From the NCBI RefSeq assembly GCF_000237325.1, contig NC_017542.1:3506501-3570500 (forward strand): a DNA stretch of 64,000 bases, written 5' to 3'. Both the position numbers and the translations under genes were made by a program. Positions 3,879 through 61,924 of the stretch are shown here, in pieces; positions within the stretch are counted from its first letter, which is position 1, and every line of letters starts with the position of its first letter. The stretch comes from Paenibacillus polymyxa M1 (GTDB lineage: Bacteria > Bacillota > Bacilli > Paenibacillales > Paenibacillaceae). The notes below the pieces were generated by a model. It was not told where the DNA came from. It saw only the letters and a program-made list of their open reading frames with translations, and did not search any database.

Positions 3879-4646
3879 TTACCATTCATGTGTTCCATCC
3901 TGCGAATTAATCACCTGAACATGTGTGCTGTCGATCCCCCATTTTTCACGTAGAATGCCTGTGATTAAGCCAAAAGCTTTCTGATCCGCAGGTTTGCCAT
4001 CCTCTGTGGTTTCGTCAGGACTACGATCATCTTCTCGCGTTCCTTCATTATGATTAGAGGTTTTTGACTGTGTCGGCTCTACACGAATATTCACTGTCTT
4101 TTCAGCTACAGGCTCCACGATAACCGGCTTGATATCTGTATCCGGCGGGACGTTTGTGTTTTTTTCTTTTTCTGCCTTCTGCTCCGCCAATTTGACCACT
4201 ACTGACTGAACACCCGTTCCTGCCTCTAGCCCCGATTCTTTCTGCTGAATCTGCGCAAGGGTCACCTGGACCGACTGAATTGCTAACCCAGTGTACTGCT
4301 CCAATTGCCCTTTCATTTCCTTAGCTACCTCTTTGCCTGCCCATTGCATGGAGCTTTGTTCCTGCTGTTGCTTTAGCTTGTTGCCTTTGGCTAAGATCTC
4401 CTCCAATGTCGGTTCCCTGTTACCTGTCTCTGCCTGGCGTTGCAGATCCAATGCTCGCCCCAGAACCTCTGAGGGACTGCTGCTCAGCAAGCGCACAATC
4501 GGAGACAGCAATGTCAGCAAAACAAGCAGGCTGAGTACGAGTTTGACATACCTTTCCATAGATCGGCTCGGTAAGATCATATCGACAAAAGAAGCCAGCA
4601 GCACGATTAGCACTAGTTCCTTGAGCCAGCCTCCCAGCCAGGTCAC
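3879..4646 (-). CDS. spoIIIAF: stage III sporulation protein AF
   Basis: This is a membrane component of the SpoIIIA complex. The 255-residue protein begins at a GTG behind GGGAGGCGAG. Two N-terminal transmembrane helices (about residues 7-22 and 34-54) flank the conserved ILPSRSMERYVKLVLSLLVL segment; the rest is a hydrophilic domain with a charged, low-complexity tail (DDRSPDETTEDG) and the closing DSTHVQVINSQDG. The gene order and two-helix plan match the family; the acidic insert makes it longer than the B. subtilis protein. Confidence 0.93.
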   Translation of the reverse strand: MTWLGGWLKELVLIVLLASFVDMILPSRSMERYVKLVLSLLVLLTLLSPIVRLLSSSPSEVLGRALDLQRQAETGNREPTLEEILAKGNKLKQQQEQSSMQWAGKEVAKEMKGQLEQYTGLAIQSVQVTLAQIQQKESGLEAGTGVQSVVVKLAEQKAEKEKNTNVPPDTDIKPVIVEPVAEKTVNIRVEPTQSKTSNHNEGTREDDRSPDETTEDGKPADQKAFGLITGILREKWGIDSTHVQVINSQDGTHEW

Positions 4647-54423: not shown

Positions 54424-54507
54424 TGTATATAATACTACTATAAGAGTATACGTTCAAGAATATTTTGGAATATGATCAATTACATATCAGGGGAGGAGGT
54501 CAACATT

Positions 54508-55026
54508 TTGAAGGAGCGTAGAAGTAGAACCATATTTCTAGCGGACTGTCAAAGCTTTTATACCAGCGTCGAAAAAGCGGATAATCCCACCTACCAACAT
54601 AAGCCGCTCGTTGTGGCCGGTGACCCTGCACTTCGTTCAGGCATTATTTTAGCTGCGTGTCCGCTGGCAAAAAAACTTGGTATATCCACTGCAGAACGTC
54701 TGGGGGAAGCTGTAAAAAAATGTCCTGACCTTATCATTGTACGCCCGCGCATGCAGCATTATATCGATGTCTCATTAAAAATAACAGAAATTTATAATGA
54801 ATATACGGATTTGGTTGAGGTTTTCAGCATTGATGAACAATTTCTAGATATGAGCGGAAGTCTCTCCCTGTTCGGAGATCCGATGAGCATTGCAAGTGAA
54901 ATTCAGCAGAAAGTGCTCGCACAAACAGGAGTATGGATTCGAATTGGTATCGGTCCCAATAAAATGCTGGCTAAAACGATTATAAGACAAACTAAATTAC
55001 TTGTACATAATTATAAAATCCTGTAG
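54508..55026 (+). pseudogene. truncated Y-family DNA polymerase (UvrX/DinB-like)
   Basis: Only 173 of about 420 residues remain. The start is TTG at 54508 behind GGGGAGGAGG. The palm and finger region is intact: TIFLADCQSFYTSVEKA with the metal-binding Asp, and VFSIDEQFLDMSGS. The sequence closely parallels the intact polymerase at 60656-61924 up to NKMLAK, where homology stops (near 54980) and a short unrelated tail runs to TAG. It lacks the thumb and little-finger domains. It is 145 bp left of the Tn3 element, so the break is not at the transposon end. Confidence 0.85.
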
Positions 55027-55171
55027 GAACAAGATATTTAACGACTAAAGTAATGTACATTATTCAATTGCTTTGTTTATTGCTTTCGAAAAAATTTTTA
55101 GATTAAAAATTTAGTTGTAGATGTCCAAGTATTTCTTATTGCTTAGACTAAGATAAGGCTTCTTTTAGAGC

Positions 55172-55176
55172 ACTAC
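55172..55176. repeat. target site duplication ACTAC (left)
   Basis: ACTAC directly precedes the GGGG of the left terminal repeat and recurs right after the right end at 60463-60467. A 5-bp duplication is typical of Tn3-family transposition. Confidence 0.85.
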
Positions 55177-55214
55177 GGGGTACCGCCAACAAAGTGCGGA
55201 TTTTGTACGCTAAG
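55177..55214 (+). repeat. left terminal inverted repeat of the Tn3 element
   Basis: 38 bp from GGGGTACCGCC to TACGCTAAG. A second imperfect copy of its inner part (CCGGAATCTTGTACGCTAAG) ends at 55255, 41 bp further in; the transposase stop codon lies in that copy. Confidence 0.9.
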
Positions 55215-55250
55215 CCTTGATTGTCGAAAAAAACGCCGGAATCTTGTACG

Positions 55251-56096
55251 CTAAGGATTACCGGCTTCGATTCTTCCTTGAATAAGTGGTAACAATGCGT
55301 TTAAACTGGCATTTCGTTTTTGATCGAATGTGTACTCACCAAGAAAGTTGATATGTTCCCAACCTAAAGGCGAAATGTGGCTTAATAGATTTTCATGAAG
55401 CGATCCTTTTTGCTTCAAGACCTTCGTTGCTTCTGTAAGATGAACCGTATTCCAGACACTAATTGCGTTGATGAGAATATTCAATGCGCTGGCCCATTGT
55501 AGCTGATTTAGCAAGGCACGCTCGCGTAATTCTCCGCGTTTTCCAAAAAAAAGTGCTCTGGCAAGAGCGTTCATTGCCTCGCCTTTATTTAGACCGCGCT
55601 GGATGCGACGACGCATCGATTCGCTAGAGATGTAATCCAAAATGAAGATTGTCTTTTCTATCCGTCCCATTTCCCGTAGAGCTGTAGCTAAACTATTTTG
55701 TCTAGCATAAGATCCAAGCTTCTCCATGATAAGAGATCCTGAAACTTTCCCTTCCCGAATAGAGTGGGCTAAACGTAAAACGTCATTATAGTTCTCCTGT
55801 ATGATCTTCGTATTGATACGACCGCGAAGTAGGTTTTCTATCTTTGGAAATTCGCCTGTCTTATCAAACGAATATAACCTGGAATCAGATAAATCGCGAA
55901 GCCGTGGAGCAAATCGGAATCCGAGCAAATGACTTAAACCAAAGACTTGATCAGTGTAGCCGGCGGTATCCGTATAATGTTCTTCAATAGACAACTCAGA
56001 TTCATGATGCAAAAGGCCATCGATGACATGCACCGCGTCACGAGCGTTCGTATTGATGACTTTGTCCAAACCGGTCAAGTTGGTACCAGAAGAAAT
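55251..56096 (-). pseudogene. Tn3-family transposase, C-terminal fragment
   Basis: About 282 of nearly 1000 residues remain. The sequence contains the second part of the DDE domain: HYTDTAGYTDQVFGLSHLLG with the catalytic Asp, FAPRLRDLSDSRLY, and the closing ELRERALLNQLQWASALN and WEHINFLGEYTF. The reading frame stays open up to 56096, where a foreign Tn3-type end (GGGGTACC) begins, so the N-terminal 700 residues are lost. TAG falls in the subterminal repeat of the left end. Confidence 0.92.
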
Positions 56097-56134
56097 GGGG
56101 TACCGCCAGCAAATCGGAAAAAAACTACGTTAAG
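56097..56134 (+). repeat. second, distinct Tn3-type terminal repeat, internal
   Basis: 38 bp beginning GGGGTACCGCCAGCAAATCG and ending CTACGTTAAG. It shares its outer 12 bp with the element's own end but differs inside. A further imperfect inner copy ends at 56175. It abuts the broken transposase directly. No matching inverted partner was found in the window. Confidence 0.8.
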
Positions 56135-56287
56135 CAAATTTCGACAAAGAAAAGACCGATTTTGACCACGTTAAGGCTAAATCGGCTGTTTCATTTCAAA
56201 CTTAGTTGTGTGGAATTTATTCATGTAAAATGTTCCTACTCTTATATTAGAGACAAACGATTTCCCCTTAATACGTTCGTGTTTATA

Positions 56288-57148
56288 TCACTCTTTTATT
56301 GTAGGTCTACTTACCAGTTGTAACAAGCGCTTCATTTTCTGTTCTGTTTCTCCCTCTTGGCGAGGTTGGTAAATGGTTAATTTTAGTTCAGGTGCATCGT
56401 ACACCTGAAGAGTAATATGATCCATAATCATTTCTCCAACTAAAGGATGCAGAAGTGTTTTTTTGCCACAAGGAGTACCTAGAACTTCATGCTTGGGCCA
56501 CCAATTACGAAACTCAGGGCTCTTATTAGTAAGTTCTTTAATGATATCTTTAAACCACTCATCACCGACAAAACGTGTATATGCTAAACGAAATTGAGCA
56601 ATCAAGCGTTGCGCATGATCTTCCCAATTAAGAAATAGCTCTCGGTATTCTTTAGATGCAAAGCAACGCCAGACTGCATTACGATCTCGATCATTCATTT
56701 TATTAAAGTCACCAAAAACCACGGTAGCAGCTTTATTCCAGCTTACTATGTTCAATTTTTCGTCTGTTACATAGGTAGGACAGTATTTTAATTGACTCAA
56801 TAAATTTTTCAAGACGCTATTTACACTTTCAACGAGAGGTCTTCCCACCTTAGATAGCAATGGCTGATTTGCTAATAAAAATAGATGCTCTTTTTCCTCT
56901 TCATTTAGCCTGAATACACGCGAAATAGCCTCCAATACTTCTGAAGATACTTGTATATCACGCCCTTGCTCTAACCATGTATACCAAGTTATTCCTATCC
57001 CTGCCAGCTGAGCTACTTCTTCTCGGCGCAGTCCCTCTGTTTTTCTACGTGGCCCAATAGGTAAACCAAAATCTTGAGGAGATAACCGTGCCCGTCGTGT
57101 CTTTAAAAAATCCCCTAGTTCTTTCCTTCTTTCTTTATCACTTAACAT
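56288..57148 (-). CDS. helix-turn-helix regulator, MmyB type
   Basis: The 286-residue protein has an N-terminal XRE-type helix-turn-helix (LRREEVAQLAGIGITWYTWLEQGRD) and a C-terminal MmyB-like ligand-binding domain (LNIVSWNKAATVVFGDF, HPLVGEMIMDHITLQVYDAPELKLTIY). The family often regulates adjacent oxidoreductase or efflux genes in response to small hydrophobic ligands. GGGGAGAGGTTAA precedes the ATG. It is divergent from the MFS operon and likely controls it. Base composition is more AT-rich than the chromosomal neighbours, in keeping with transfer. Confidence 0.9.
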   Translation of the reverse strand: MLSDKERRKELGDFLKTRRARLSPQDFGLPIGPRRKTEGLRREEVAQLAGIGITWYTWLEQGRDIQVSSEVLEAISRVFRLNEEEKEHLFLLANQPLLSKVGRPLVESVNSVLKNLLSQLKYCPTYVTDEKLNIVSWNKAATVVFGDFNKMNDRDRNAVWRCFASKEYRELFLNWEDHAQRLIAQFRLAYTRFVGDEWFKDIIKELTNKSPEFRNWWPKHEVLGTPCGKKTLLHPLVGEMIMDHITLQVYDAPELKLTIYQPRQEGETEQKMKRLLQLVSRPTIKE

Positions 57149-57254
57149 TTAACCTCTCCCCTTATATAAGTAGTAGTTTTAATAATAGTATAAACACACT
57201 CCTATTCCCATTATAAACCTTTATCTATTCTAATACATGAAGGAGGTGAGTTTA

Positions 57255-58484
57255 ATGGTTTTCAAAAAAAGGGCTGAGGCTTTTCCTATACTTACGAAAG
57301 GATTAGTTCTCCTAATGGCTGCAGCATGTGGTTTTACAGTAGCTAATGTCTATTTAAATCAAACGCTCTTAGTCAGTATGGCAAATACTTTTCACATTTC
57401 TGAAACCAATATAGGAATTGTAGCAACTTTAACTCAAGTGGGATATGCTTTGGGAAATCTTTTATTGGTACCATTAGGTGACATTTTTGAACGAAGAAAA
57501 TTGATCCTAAGTTTATTATCTATTGTATGTATTATTTTAGCTGCAACTGCTTTATCAATGAATGTAACATGGCTGATTGCAGCAAACTTAATTCTTGGAT
57601 TTGTTACCATTGTCCCTCAAATTATTGTTCCTCTTGCTGCTAATTTAGCTTCAGAAGATAACAGAGGAAAAGTGTTAGGGAACGTTGCCATTGGCTTAGT
57701 GTGTGGGATTTTAGGTGCTCGATTAATCAGTGGTTTTGTAGATTCACATTTTGGATGGAGATCTATGTATTGGGCTTCTTTTGCTGGCACAATTATAATG
57801 ATCATTTTAATTGTAATGTATCTTCCAAAAAGCAAAGGAAATCATGCAATACAGTATAAAAAATTACTTACATCTTTAGGCCCGTTATTTTTAAAGGAAA
57901 AAGTGTTGCAAAAAGCTTGCCTTAGTCAAGGAATGATGTTTGGTTCCTTTAGTGCCTTCTGGACAACACTTGTTTTTTTATTAAATACTTCTCCGTATTC
58001 TTATGGGAGTACCGTGGCAGGGTTAATAGGTTTAGTGGGAATAGCTGGAGCCTTTGCAACTCCTATTATTGGCCGGGTGATTGATAAAAAAGGGCCAAAA
58101 TTTGCTAATACTTTATGTATGTTTATTTCTTTAATCGCTTTTCTAATCTTAATATTCTTAGGATATTGGCTACTAGGATTAATTCTTGGTGCACTATTAG
58201 TAACAGTTGGTACGCAAGCAAATCAAGTTGCTTGTCAAGCTACTATCTTTCAACTATCTCCCGAAAAGAGAAGCAGATTAAATGGATTATACATGGTATC
58301 TACATTCTTAGGTGGATCTTTAGGATCATATTTAGGTGTACTTGCTTGGAGCAAATGGCATTGGTATGGAGTATGTACAGTTGGGATACTCATGATAGGT
58401 ATTGCTTTTAGTTCCTTATTTAGCTTTCCTAAACAAGAAAAAACAGTAAAAAATAGAGAATTCGAGAAAGGAAGTCATGTCTAA
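57255..58484 (+). CDS. MFS transporter, passenger gene
   Basis: The 409-residue protein has twelve predicted helices and the MFS loop motif GDIFERRKLILSL between helices 2 and 3; GRVIDKKGPKF is the equivalent loop in the second half. It resembles AraJ/drug-exporter type MFS proteins. ATG at 57255 is chosen because AAGGAGGTGAG precedes it; the ATG at 57237 would leave that site inside the gene. The TAATG stop-start overlaps the next gene. The exported or imported compound is unknown. Confidence 0.9.
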   Translation: MVFKKRAEAFPILTKGLVLLMAAACGFTVANVYLNQTLLVSMANTFHISETNIGIVATLTQVGYALGNLLLVPLGDIFERRKLILSLLSIVCIILAATALSMNVTWLIAANLILGFVTIVPQIIVPLAANLASEDNRGKVLGNVAIGLVCGILGARLISGFVDSHFGWRSMYWASFAGTIIMIILIVMYLPKSKGNHAIQYKKLLTSLGPLFLKEKVLQKACLSQGMMFGSFSAFWTTLVFLLNTSPYSYGSTVAGLIGLVGIAGAFATPIIGRVIDKKGPKFANTLCMFISLIAFLILIFLGYWLLGLILGALLVTVGTQANQVACQATIFQLSPEKRSRLNGLYMVSTFLGGSLGSYLGVLAWSKWHWYGVCTVGILMIGIAFSSLFSFPKQEKTVKNREFEKGSHV

Positions 58485-58885
58485 TGTCTGCAAATACAGA
58501 AAACTATAAAAAAGGATTGGAAGTATTATCAAAAATAGATCCGGACAACTATCAAAATATCGTGAATAGTTTTAAAGATTCAGTAGCACCTGACTTAGGA
58601 ACTTTGGCCGTGGAATTTAATTACGGTCAAATTTTTTCTAGACCAGGATTAGATTTAAAATCTCGCCTTCTTGCAACAGTTGCTGGTCTAACTGCTTTAG
58701 GAAATACGGAACAATTAAAGTTTTATATTAACGGAGCTTTAAATGTTGGATGGACCGAAGAAGAAATTGTGGAAGCTATGATGCAAATGTTAATTTATGC
58801 AGGCTTTCCTGTCGCATTAAATACCATTTTAACAATAGCTACCGAAGTATTTTCTAAAAGACGAAATCAGCTGTCAGCCAATTAA
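58484..58885 (+). CDS. carboxymuconolactone decarboxylase-family protein, passenger gene
   Basis: A 133-residue, all-helical CMD-fold protein: SVAPDLGTLAVEFNYGQIFSRPGLDLKSR, LLATVAGLTALGNTEQLKFYINGALNVGWTEEEIVEAMMQM. The family includes gamma-carboxymuconolactone decarboxylase and AhpD-like peroxidase partners; this one has no cysteine, so it is not AhpD-like. The start overlaps the MFS stop (TAATG), so translation is coupled. A role in breaking down or detoxifying an aromatic or lactone compound is inferred only. Confidence 0.85.
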   Translation: MSANTENYKKGLEVLSKIDPDNYQNIVNSFKDSVAPDLGTLAVEFNYGQIFSRPGLDLKSRLLATVAGLTALGNTEQLKFYINGALNVGWTEEEIVEAMMQMLIYAGFPVALNTILTIATEVFSKRRNQLSAN

Positions 58886-58902
58886 TGGAGGGAGAGTGAA
58901 AA

Positions 58903-59688
58903 ATGATTATCGATAGTCATGCCCACGTAGTTCTACCTATAGAAAAACAAATTAAAATGATGGATTCAAGTGGGATAGATAAAACTATTTTATTCTCTAC
59001 GCTTGTTCATCCAGAAAAAAGTGAAAGCTACGATGAATTTATTCAGGAAATGGATGTACTGAATCAAATTTTAAATAACGAGATAAATCCCCTAGAAGCA
59101 CGATTAAAAGCTCTAGAAGAATTAAGGGATGCTATCGCAAAATATCCTGATCGTTTTACTGGATTTGGTTCGGTTCCCCTTTTAAGTTCCTCTGGAGAAC
59201 TGCACGATTGGATTGAGAAGATTGTAAAAGATTATAAAATGAAGGGACTTGGAGAGTTTACCCTTGGTTCAGGCCAAATTAAAATGCTTGAACCTGCATT
59301 CCAGGCAGCTAGTGATTATAATTCCTTTCCGATTTGGGTGCATACATTCCATCCACTCAATTTAAATGATATTCAGGAATTGTTCGCTTTAACTCGTAAA
59401 TATCCCAATGTACCTGTAATTTATGGCCATTTGGGAGGAGTTCATTGGCTGCAAGTTATTGCATTAACAAAAGAAACAAAGAACGCCTACCTAGATATCT
59501 CTGCATTTTATACAACCTATGCATTATCTTTGGCTATAAAAGAACTCCCAGAGAAAACTTTATTTAGCTCTGATTTTCCTTATGGTGATCCGTTCTTAAA
59601 TAGGTTGGCAGTTGAACGTCATGCTTCAAGTGAAGAAGTCGTACAACGAGTACTAGGTGGAAATATTGCTAACCTTTTAAATATTTAA
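58903..59688 (+). CDS. amidohydrolase-family protein (Amidohydro_2 type), passenger gene
   Basis: A 261-residue TIM-barrel metal-dependent hydrolase: MIIDSHAHVVLP at the start supplies the two metal histidines, with WVHTFHPLNLNDI, VPVIYGHLGGVHWLQVIAL and LFSSDFPYGDPFLNRLAVE supplying further His and Asp residues. The family contains decarboxylases such as the 2-amino-3-carboxymuconate semialdehyde type and lactone hydrolases. GGAGGGAGAGTG precedes the ATG, 17 bp after the CMD gene. The operon ends at the next terminator. Substrate unknown. Confidence 0.88.
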   Translation: MIIDSHAHVVLPIEKQIKMMDSSGIDKTILFSTLVHPEKSESYDEFIQEMDVLNQILNNEINPLEARLKALEELRDAIAKYPDRFTGFGSVPLLSSSGELHDWIEKIVKDYKMKGLGEFTLGSGQIKMLEPAFQAASDYNSFPIWVHTFHPLNLNDIQELFALTRKYPNVPVIYGHLGGVHWLQVIALTKETKNAYLDISAFYTTYALSLAIKELPEKTLFSSDFPYGDPFLNRLAVERHASSEEVVQRVLGGNIANLLNI

Positions 59689-59707
59689 CTTATTTTTATA
59701 TCAATTT

Positions 59708-59771
59708 AAGACATAAAAGCAATCCTTACTTCTCCTTATCATTGGGAAAACTAGGATTGCTTTTATGTCTT
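59708..59771. terminator. terminator of the passenger operon
   Basis: A 19-bp perfect stem AAGACATAAAAGCAATCCT / AGGATTGCTTTTATGTCTT with a 26-nt loop. No long T run follows on the plus strand, so termination is likely but not certain. Confidence 0.65.
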
Positions 59772-59857
59772 AGTGTAAGGTGATACTCCTCTTTAGAATT
59801 ATAAACTGTAACATTTTAAATAAAAATAAACAAAGAAAAAGCTTTATGTCATTCATA

Positions 59858-59964
59858 CAACACAATAATAATTGTGTTGTATCGATAAGGGTAAATCTTG
59901 CTCTTTTCAGATCCTTACGCAACACAATTTAGCCCCAAGATGATGTTTCTCAATGCAACACAAT
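59858..59964. other. TnpI-type internal resolution site (IRS)
   Basis: CAACACAAT occurs at 59858-59866, inverted as ATTGTGTTG at 59871-59879, and as direct copies at 59920-59928 and 59956-59964. One inverted pair (core) plus two direct repeats (accessory) is the layout known for the tyrosine recombinase TnpI of Tn4430-like elements. It lies between the passenger operon and the right end; no tnpI gene is present. Confidence 0.78.
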
Positions 59965-60027
59965 CGTTAACGTGGTTTTTTCGCGTTTTGTTAGTGCTAC
60001 TTCTCAAATCACTTTGGAGGAATAATT

Positions 60028-60280
60028 ATGGATAAGGATTTTCTTGCTCCTATTGGTCTAATCACAGGGTTGCTGCTCTAGACCGCAAAGTAGCAGATAA
60101 GTGTAAATTATTGAAAAGGCAGAAAGTGGTGAAGATTTAAGTGATGAAGAACTAGCCACTTTGAAAGCTTTGCTAGTCGAACAGGATGCCGAAATTGCGC
60201 GGCTCAACGGGGTAACTACCCTTTTGAGCGGAGACGACATAGTGATGGTGGATGATCAAGACGACGAAGAAGACGAGTAA
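60028..60280 (+). pseudogene. frameshifted small acidic protein gene
   Basis: An ATG at 60028 with a GGAGG site opens MDKDFLAPIGLIT; the frame then stops at 60081, but the other frames continue RVAALDRKVADKC and then IEKAESGEDLSDEELATLKALL and end in DDIVMVDDQDDEEDE at 60280. At least two frameshifts are needed to join them into a protein of about 84 residues. It is not recognised; the acidic end resembles some phage proteins. A GGAGCG/CGCTCC hairpin follows at 60309-60335. Confidence 0.55.
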
Positions 60281-60308
60281 CATTTACAGTTGAAAACTAG
60301 GATTCTAG

Positions 60309-60335
60309 GAGCGGAAACGCTCCCTATTTTTGTGC
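60309..60335 (+). terminator. hairpin terminator after the frameshifted gene
   Basis: GGAGCGGAAACGCTCC followed by CTATTTTTG. Confidence 0.7.
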
Positions 60336-60424
60336 CTTCGGAACAATAATAAAAGCAACTGGATATTTCTGTTTGTTTGGTGCGAATCCGTCACCGCCCT
60401 TTAATCCGCGAAGCCATTTACGTC

Positions 60425-60462
60425 CTTAGCGTACAAAATCCGCATTATGTTGGCGGTCGCCC
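60425..60462 (-). repeat. right terminal inverted repeat of the Tn3 element
   Basis: The 38 bp from CTTAGCGTAC to GTCGCCC are the reverse complement of the left end with four mismatches, two near the outer tip. Confidence 0.88.
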
Positions 60463-60467
60463 ACTAC
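60463..60467. repeat. target site duplication ACTAC (right)
   Basis: Same 5-bp sequence as at 55172-55176, immediately beyond the right end. Confidence 0.85.
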
Positions 60468-60537
60468 ATGCTACCCGCGTATTTCTTTAATTAATAATTT
60501 AAATGGAATATAATGATGAGGACGTGACCCAAGCAAA

Positions 60538-60560
60538 GGTGCGGAAGCACCCTTTTTATT
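60538..60560 (+). terminator. isolated hairpin terminator
   Basis: GGTGC-GGAA-GCACC followed by CTTTTTATT. No intact gene precedes it in the 70 bp after the transposon end, so it is probably the end of a gene lost or displaced by rearrangement. Confidence 0.55.
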
Positions 60561-60655
60561 GAACTAACGGATAGCTTGGTTCCAATAATCAGGAATTTAC
60601 ACTGTACTAATAGTGAAAGATCGAATTTACTGGATGTATTAGTTTTAATACCTGT

Positions 60656-61924
60656 TTATTTATAATGCCCCCCGATTTTTAGGGATCTCTCTAGTGCCTG
60701 ACCAGCTTGGGTCAAAGAGGACGCTCTTATGATAGCTGCGCTACCATAGCGTTCTTTAATTTTATCTGTTGCTTCTTCCAGGGAGCGGATACGCTCATGA
60801 TCCTCAAAGAAGGAAAGTTGATAAGTTTGGTCGTCAACCAACCCACTTAAAGTGACACCTAAGCGTCGTATCGGCATACCGTTCCAAAAATTATAAAATA
60901 TTTTTTTTGCTGCGTTGTACACTTTATTCGTATTGTTAGTCGAATCTGTTAGCTTCATTTGCCTGGAAAATCCGGTGGGAGCCTCATATGGACTGCATGT
61001 ACAACTAACGGTCACGACAGAGCCCATGTACCCCTTACGACGACTGTCTCGACAAACTTCTTCCGAGAGTTCAAGCAGGATGGTCTCTACTTCATTTGGT
61101 TCCAAATAATCCTGGGGTAGGGTCATCATATGGCTTACCGACTTTTGTGGAGAACTGAGGGTATACGGAGCTACAGGACTCTCATCTAGACCATTGGCTG
61201 TTTTCCACATGACCTCCGCCTGTATATCCGACTGTTTTCCAAAACGAACGCGGAATTTAGACTTAAGGTCTGGTAGAGACGTTCTAGCGATATCACCAAT
61301 GGTTGTCATACCAAGCCGCTCAAAATGGGACGACATCCGCGAACCTACCCCAAACATTTTATTAACTGGCTGTGGCCAGAGTAGCTGCTCTAATTCTGTC
61401 TTGGGCAACGTGAATATACCGCTTTTAATTTTTTTAGCCCAAATATCAGTTGCGCTTTTGGCAAGAACCTTATTGGAACTGATTCCTATTCGTACCCAAA
61501 CCCCGGTTTGTAAAAGAACCTTCTTTTGAATTTCTCTTGCAACGGTTAAAGAATCTCCAAAAATTTTAAAACTACCCGAAATGTCCAGAAACTGCTCATC
61601 GATACTAAACACCTCTACTAGATCGGTGTATTCCTTGTATATATCCGTAATTGCTAAAGAGACATCAATATAATGTTTCATACGGGGACGGACGATCACA
61701 AGCTCAGGACATTTGTTGAGGGCTTCACCGAGCCGTTCTGCTGTAGACACCCCGAAACTTTTGGCCATAGGGCATGCTGCTAAAATAATTCCAGACCTGC
61801 GTGCAGGATCGCCTGCTACCGCAAGCGGTTTATTTTTGTACTCTGGGTAAGAAGCTTTTTCTACACTCGCATAAAAACTCTGACAATCCGCCAAAAGAAT
61901 TGTCCGCTCAGTTGTTTTAGTCAT
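60656..61924 (-). CDS. Y-family DNA polymerase (UvrX/DinB-like), intact
   Basis: The 422-residue translesion polymerase has TILLADCQSFYASVEKASYPEY with the first metal-binding Asp, AGDPARRSGIILAACPMAK, VFSIDEQFLDISGSF with the catalytic Asp-Glu, a helix-hairpin-helix thumb (MFGVGSRMSSHFERLGMTTIGDIA) and a C-terminal little-finger domain (FWNGMPIRRLGVTLSGL). A LexA box lies 33 bp upstream. It is nearly a paralogue of the truncated gene at 54508. No YolD-like partner gene is adjacent. Confidence 0.94.
   Translation of the reverse strand: MTKTTERTILLADCQSFYASVEKASYPEYKNKPLAVAGDPARRSGIILAACPMAKSFGVSTAERLGEALNKCPELVIVRPRMKHYIDVSLAITDIYKEYTDLVEVFSIDEQFLDISGSFKIFGDSLTVAREIQKKVLLQTGVWVRIGISSNKVLAKSATDIWAKKIKSGIFTLPKTELEQLLWPQPVNKMFGVGSRMSSHFERLGMTTIGDIARTSLPDLKSKFRVRFGKQSDIQAEVMWKTANGLDESPVAPYTLSSPQKSVSHMMTLPQDYLEPNEVETILLELSEEVCRDSRRKGYMGSVVTVSCTCSPYEAPTGFSRQMKLTDSTNNTNKVYNAAKKIFYNFWNGMPIRRLGVTLSGLVDDQTYQLSFFEDHERIRSLEEATDKIKERYGSAAIIRASSLTQAGQALERSLKIGGHYK

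Follow-up and report, generated by a model that had tools for sequence, protein, structure and literature searches.

Evidence for two nested Tn3-type elements with a four-gene cargo in Paenibacillus polymyxa M1

The locus and the question it raises

A 64,000-nt stretch of the genome of Paenibacillus polymyxa M1 (contig NC_017542.1, positions 3,506,501 to 3,570,500), called the window below, contained at nt 55177–60462 a unit with Tn3-type ends in which a 3′ fragment of a transposase gene (tnpA) stood beside genes for transport and metabolism. The question raised by this locus was how such a cargo came to occupy the place of transposition genes. A preceding sequence-only reading had explained the unit as one element on the plan of Tn4430, with passengers replacing tnpI and the front of tnpA. 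The resolution site and the cargo were, however, found to lie in a second, inner element at nt 56097–60003. The locus is thus quite probably explained by two nested Tn3-type elements, a composite that moved as a unit with a 5-bp target duplication and whose tnpA was later deleted differently in each lineage. The seeming replacement of transposition genes would then resolve into nesting and later deletion, with steps that can be read from empty copies of the target repeat, from a second species and from a relative whose tnpI and tnpA are open.

The outer element and its target

The following features were assigned to the outer element and its target.

55177..60462 (no strand): outer Tn3-family element, 5286 bp, bounded by matched ends, with empty repeat copies and a second copy in Paenibacillus sp. 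BJ-4
55172..55176 (no strand): target-site duplication ACTAC, left copy, a single site in uninterrupted repeats
60463..60467 (no strand): target-site duplication ACTAC, right copy
55177..55214 (+): outer end E1L, tnpA side, 38 bp
60425..60462 (-): outer end E1R, tnpI side
55251..56063 (-): tnpA 3′ fragment, 270 codons plus stop, open frame
56064..56096 (+): tnpI piece of the outer element, 33 bp, inverted relative to tnpA, matching L131:1246-1280 (Brevibacillus invocatus) within tnpI
60004..60422 (+): stretch between the inner and outer right ends, partly a host-type small-gene remnant
55122-55176 and 60463-60582, also L055:4784-4951: dispersed intergenic repeat of about 165 bp

E1L and E1R were identical at 34 of 38 positions, a level not reached when the window was shuffled 200 times under a Markov-1 model (best, 25), and ACTAC was present on both outer flanks; on both points the sequence-only reading had been accurate. 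A second TACGCTAAG motif followed E1L within nt 55241–55255. The transposase 3′ fragment, also noticed in that reading, started at about codon 724 of the 993-codon B. invocatus gene and covered positions 144–389 of the 389 of PF01526 (match in nt 55251–56078). The Tn4430 transposase was its sole match in PDB at E 0.001, and its 354.8 bits lay below the 500-bit cut-off of NCBIfam model NF033527. Similarity of the tnpA side to relatives ended at about nt 56063–56069. Between the inner and outer right ends, nt 60006–60055 and 60139–60246 were similar to a host-type small gene (ATGGATAAGGAT at nt 60028), here a remnant. The right 623 bp had no match in phage records at E 0.01, and the window, L055 and the BJ-4 locus (L046) gave no Rfam match at gathering scores.

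The outer unit had the related 38–40 bp terminal inverted repeats and the 5-bp target duplication of the Tn3 family. The DDE transposase of about 1000 aa typical of the family was represented only by the 270-codon fragment, and for a resolution site and resolvase of its own, the TTAGCGGACAT-type site described below was absent and tnpI was down to 33 bp. The unit is a Tn3-family descendant, not an autonomous member.

The flanks of the element were parts of the dispersed repeat, which was present in 13 genomes besides its own among 75 of the genus (own included). When the flanks were joined over a single ACTAC, the alignment crossed the joint in 10 of the 12 repeat-bearing loci examined (L055, L101–L106 and L110–L114); L106 was broken, and L114 extended just 7 bases to the left of the joint. 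Repeat places in G008 contig 13, G015, G031, G067 and G068 were outside this comparison, the other four loci of which were L107–L109, without the repeat, and L100, the orthologous locus of genome G025. A check of empty against occupied sites, suggested earlier, was made on the repeat copies, not on the orthologous locus. With L106 left out, a duplication at the target site was seen in none of the 11 aligned copies, six of which (L055, L102, L103, L105, L110 and L114) had exact ACTAC at the site. These single-target copies, the match to the Tn4430 structure and the different site occupied in BJ-4 bear out the earlier claim that a Tn4430-like unit of the Tn3 family moved here with a 5-bp duplication.

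A terminator-like GGTGCGGAAGCACC with a T-run was located close to the right end of the dispersed repeat. Beyond the repeat, the left side of the element had a truncated Y-family DNA polymerase gene (nt 54472–55026) and the right side a full-length one (nt 60656–61924); in G025, sequences related to both sides (the Y-family DNA polymerase region) were also close together.

Relatives with outer-type ends

A pattern for both outer ends, applied to the named genome collection, found 12 stretches. In B. invocatus JCM 12215 contig_61 (L131), the same left end was accompanied by open tnpA (993 codons) and tnpI (309 codons), and 90% DNA identity was shared with nt 55177–56063 of the window. The 40 bp at nt 60423–60462, the outer right end, were identical in B. 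centrosporus, P. chibensis and P. oralis; in P. oralis, the outer-type right end preceded an internal resolution site (IRS), tnpI, and a tnpA matching to codon 759 only. Close plasmid relatives comprised 4 records with 80–90% identity over no more than 3% of the query, and another plasmid search had one record in the 95–99% band, outside the 40 matches listed.

Several smaller observations concern these relatives. P. chibensis had a 353-bp mini-element (L135:3189-3541) with TAGAT on both sides, located at the same gene end as the longer tnpI/tnpA element of P. oralis (L139:3957). B. invocatus contig_6 (L132:914-3138) and Paenibacillus sp. 453mf (L125:7830-10054) had the same two cargo genes beside E1-type ends, read as a universal stress protein and a SulP transporter. 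Paenibacillus sp. Cedars and Paenibacillus larvae had plasmids with relatives of the tnpI fragment at 81–83% identity.

The inner element E2 and its resolution site

The sequence-only reading had overlooked a third end at nt 56097, a degenerate fourth at nt 60003 on the minus strand, and the 33-bp tnpI piece at nt 56064–56096. The inner element was described by the following features.

56097..60003 (no strand): inner element E2 of Tn3 type, 3907 bp, in which no transposition gene was detected
56097..56134 (+): left end of E2 (E2L), resembling tnpA-side ends of relatives as far as nt 56190
59966..60003 (-): right end of E2 (E2R), with its terminal GGGG eroded to GAAG, abutting the IRS
59858..59964 (+): TnpI-type resolution site with four CAACACAAT motifs, belonging to E2

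E2L and E2R agreed at 27 of 38 positions and were reciprocal best partners within the window (next-best partner, 26 for E2L and 22 for E2R); 27 was reached in none of 200 shuffles. E2L was of the type found on the tnpA side of relatives and E2R of that on the IRS side, and E2R with the start of the IRS matched an end on Brevibacillus laterosporus plasmid pAZOBL1 at 44 of 48 positions. Directly before E2L lay the 33 bp of outer tnpI in sense orientation, and DNA resembling an ordinary, non-transposon small gene started no more than 3 bp outside E2R. E2 has two Tn3-type ends and no transposase gene was found in it, as in insertion cassettes of the MIC type (MICs) or Tn3-derived inverted-repeat miniature elements (TIMEs), and may itself have been mobile.

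The four-motif resolution site had been placed correctly near the right end: exact CAACACAAT occurred at nt 59858 (+), 59871–59879 (-), 59920 (+) and 59956 (+) and nowhere else in the window, with 0.93 copies expected and at least four seen in 1 of 100 shuffles. The Tn4430 site presumably bears CAACACAAT as well. The earlier assignment of this IRS to the Tn4430 plan of the outer element was not sustained, since the relatives of the outer element have a different motif: in B. invocatus and P. oralis, four TTAGCGGACAT-like motifs were located beside tnpI in a comparable layout, and no such motif within one mismatch was present in the window element or the BJ-4 element. In two other genera, mini-elements of 230 and 223 bp had the same order of end, IRS and end. 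Motifs within one mismatch of CAACACAAT numbered three and two, respectively, the remaining motifs being weaker; one mini-element was flanked by a perfect TTATA duplication and the other by none. Because the site abuts the inner end, the outer relatives use another motif, the mini-elements show this order, and small-gene-like DNA begins just outside nt 60003, the CAACACAAT site belongs to the inner element, and its membership in the outer one was ruled out. Another genus (G202; L123:2979-3219) also had a 245-bp segment of E2, at 97% identity.

A second copy in Paenibacillus sp. BJ-4

A near-identical unit was found in one other genome of the genus set, Paenibacillus sp. BJ-4 (NZ_JAIVEM010000006.1), at a different site, with 99% identity over nt 56064–60462. 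The inner part and the 33-bp tnpI piece were identical at 3901 of 3937 positions, compared with 85–86% for about 20 kb of chromosome to the left of the window element; thus at least one of the two genomes acquired the unit recently. In BJ-4, tnpA was represented by codons 1–131 and 825–993, interrupted by a frameshift, and tnpI by codons 126–309 and inverted codons 104–135, whereas the window kept tnpA from about codon 724 onward. No piece of tnpA or tnpI was found inside the inner element of BJ-4. Since BJ-4 keeps pieces of tnpI and the front of tnpA beside the same cargo, and the two copies keep different pieces of tnpA, cargo entry and the loss of outer tnpI and tnpA were separate events. 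A complete Tn3 DDE domain was found neither among the six PF01526 matches of the window genome, the window's own included, nor among the three of BJ-4, a draft of about 190 contigs; both copies therefore look stranded. When the BJ-4 flanks were each searched in 384 genomes for an empty site, none of the matches listed, BJ-4 aside, reached the flank edge at the element.

The BJ-4 copy adjoins another Tn3-type end (L046:9940-11068), with putative LOG-family and MazG-like genes between the two.

Proposed history of the composite and alternative explanations

By analogy with B. invocatus, the outer element would descend from a TnpI/TnpA transposon, and a transposase-less cassette with two Tn3 ends, a TnpI-type site and the four-gene cargo would have come to rest within the tnpI of that transposon. 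The present layout may then have arisen through inversion of a local segment and an exchange close to the right end; the inverted halves of tnpI in BJ-4 might, as a conjecture, go back to a local inversion between short inverted repeats. Bounded by its outer ends, the composite would have moved through replicative transposition of the Tn3 type with a 5-bp target duplication, and different deletions in tnpA in the two lineages would have followed, making the copies immobile unless an outside transposase is supplied.

Several observations weigh against this history. E2L matched E1L at 26 of 38 positions, one fewer than it matched E2R. E2 had no target duplication of its own, with tnpI on its left flank and other DNA on its right, and its right GGGG was eroded, so that its components could owe their arrangement to recombination instead of insertion. 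The middle of tnpA (about codons 132–723) was lost from both copies, and the BJ-4 flanks read TAAAG/TAAAG only if the left end is one G shorter than expected. The tnpA side was less alike between the copies (556/585, partly through frameshift misalignment) than the inner element, and may be of mosaic origin. The missing DDE domain of BJ-4 could be a gap in the draft. No empty orthologous site was seen; G025, closest on the right flank, also lacked the repeat at this locus. Finally, no copy combining complete tnpA with the cargo was found in the 75 genus genomes, the 12 outer-end stretches, 394 genomes of the family (E 1e-30) or the plasmid collection. A comparison of fourfold sites for mosaicism (29/585 versus 4/339, p 0.003) was set aside, as several differing columns lay in misaligned stretches at frameshifts.

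The alternative that survives best, although clearly the less probable course, is that the composite was already transposase-less when it moved, with TnpA supplied in trans by a related Tn3 element, as has been proposed for MICs and TIMEs. It gains from the failure to find a complete DDE domain in either genome and from the occurrence, in the same family of genomes, of transposase-less Tn3-type elements with related ends. However, the differing tnpA pieces mean that no single shared deleted form made both insertions; at least the two ends of tnpA must have been present in the common form. We rather favor movement of the outer unit with a complete tnpA on board. The sequence-only reading had left three courses open (movement while still intact, with the present content, or with help in trans), of which the best fit is movement while intact and already carrying this cargo; help in trans is retained at a lower weight.

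It is unlikely that the inner element consists of unrelated Tn3 ends brought by separate insertions or deletions around an operon of plasmid type. The absence of a duplication and the eroded right end of E2 would suit this, as would the same four genes on two Priestia megaterium plasmids with 74% DNA identity, where a scan of both stretches for ends (up to 2 mismatches, degenerate pattern) gave one hit that was not end-like. The reciprocal pairing of E2L with E2R, beyond the next-best partners and all shuffles, and their correspondence to the tnpA-side and IRS-side end types of relatives speak for one element instead. A single element on the Tn4430 plan, despite the succession of end, IRS, block of genes, tnpA remnant and end on the minus strand and the solved Tn4430 TnpA as a relative, is highly improbable given the internal ends at nt 56097 and 60003, an IRS adjoining the inner end, a tnpI piece on the flank of the inner element, and another IRS motif in the relatives of the outer one.

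Comparison with known elements

Tn4430 and Tn5401 share with this locus the Tn3-type ends, a TnpI-type site comprising four subsites, of which two are inverted and two are direct (as given in the parts of PMC7157771 drawn on here), and, for Tn4430, TnpA similarity to the outer fragment. Unlike them, the locus has no complete tnpI or tnpA, carries cargo, and comprises two nested elements, with a different motif in the relatives of the outer one. The B. invocatus element corresponds to the outer element in its left end, tnpA (90% over the window piece) and tnpI; it differs in that tnpI and tnpA are open in contig_61 and that the E1-type end in contig_6 stands beside other cargo. Neither of these two loci had a match to the cargo of E2.

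The MICs are likewise cargo-bearing Tn3 derivatives without transposition genes, according to the same parts of PMC7157771, but the window cassette, which may be mobile, carries a TnpI-type IRS and is located inside another transposon. The TIMEs, including TIME-RES and TIME-COMP, similarly have Tn3-type ends without a transposase gene. They have been captured on a trap plasmid, one with a resolvase and res (PMC4133298, in part), and one with a putative res site has been predicted (PMC13367494, in part). The sites described in these portions are of the TnpR type, whereas E2 has a TnpI-type site and a 3.4-kb operon as cargo; the main text of PMC4133298 makes no mention of TnpI. Tn3 elements nested in one another, Tn3 cassettes lacking a transposase and TIMEs equipped with resolution sites have already been published (portions of PMC7157771, PMC4133298 and PMC13367494), and the window unit, a well-documented case of a Tn3 transposon with a MIC/TIME-like cassette inside it, is of a kind already known. 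Its least familiar feature is the TnpI-type site on the cassette. Elements of the TnpI type are few, three being named among 190 catalogued Tn3 elements in the part of PMC7157771 concerned, and mini-elements with such a site were found in two other genera. A literature search naming Paenibacillus found no paper within a limited collection. As a doubtful extension, there may exist in the Paenibacillaceae a class of cassettes that lack a transposase, are based on a TnpI-type site and Tn3 ends, capture operons and then hitch-hike in autonomous TnpI transposons with another motif; if so, a nested unit would possess two sets of ends independent of each other, and nesting could prevent interference between the two resolution systems.

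Cargo genes

The cargo of E2 comprised four genes and a terminator-like repeat.

56288..57148 (-): MmyB-like transcription regulator (MLTR) with a helix-turn-helix
57237..58484 (+): major facilitator superfamily (MFS) transporter, PF07690
58484..58885 (+): carboxymuconolactone-decarboxylase (CMD)-family protein, PF02627
58903..59688 (+): amidohydrolase-2 family protein, PF04909
59707..59772 (no strand): terminator-like perfect inverted repeat of 20 bp, following the cargo operon

For these four proteins, NCBIfam models gave nothing above cut-off and PADLOC gave no match. In the BJ-4 copy, the three forward genes were open and the regulator was frameshifted. The cargo would likely serve to transport a small organic compound and turn it over under control of the regulator, and it looks ordinary in kind, consisting of metabolic and transport genes. 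Immediately to the right of the window (L149:8211-10876), a second CMD-family gene was located near a Tn3 tnpA-like fragment, together with fragments named tyrosine-recombinase-like from their sequence.

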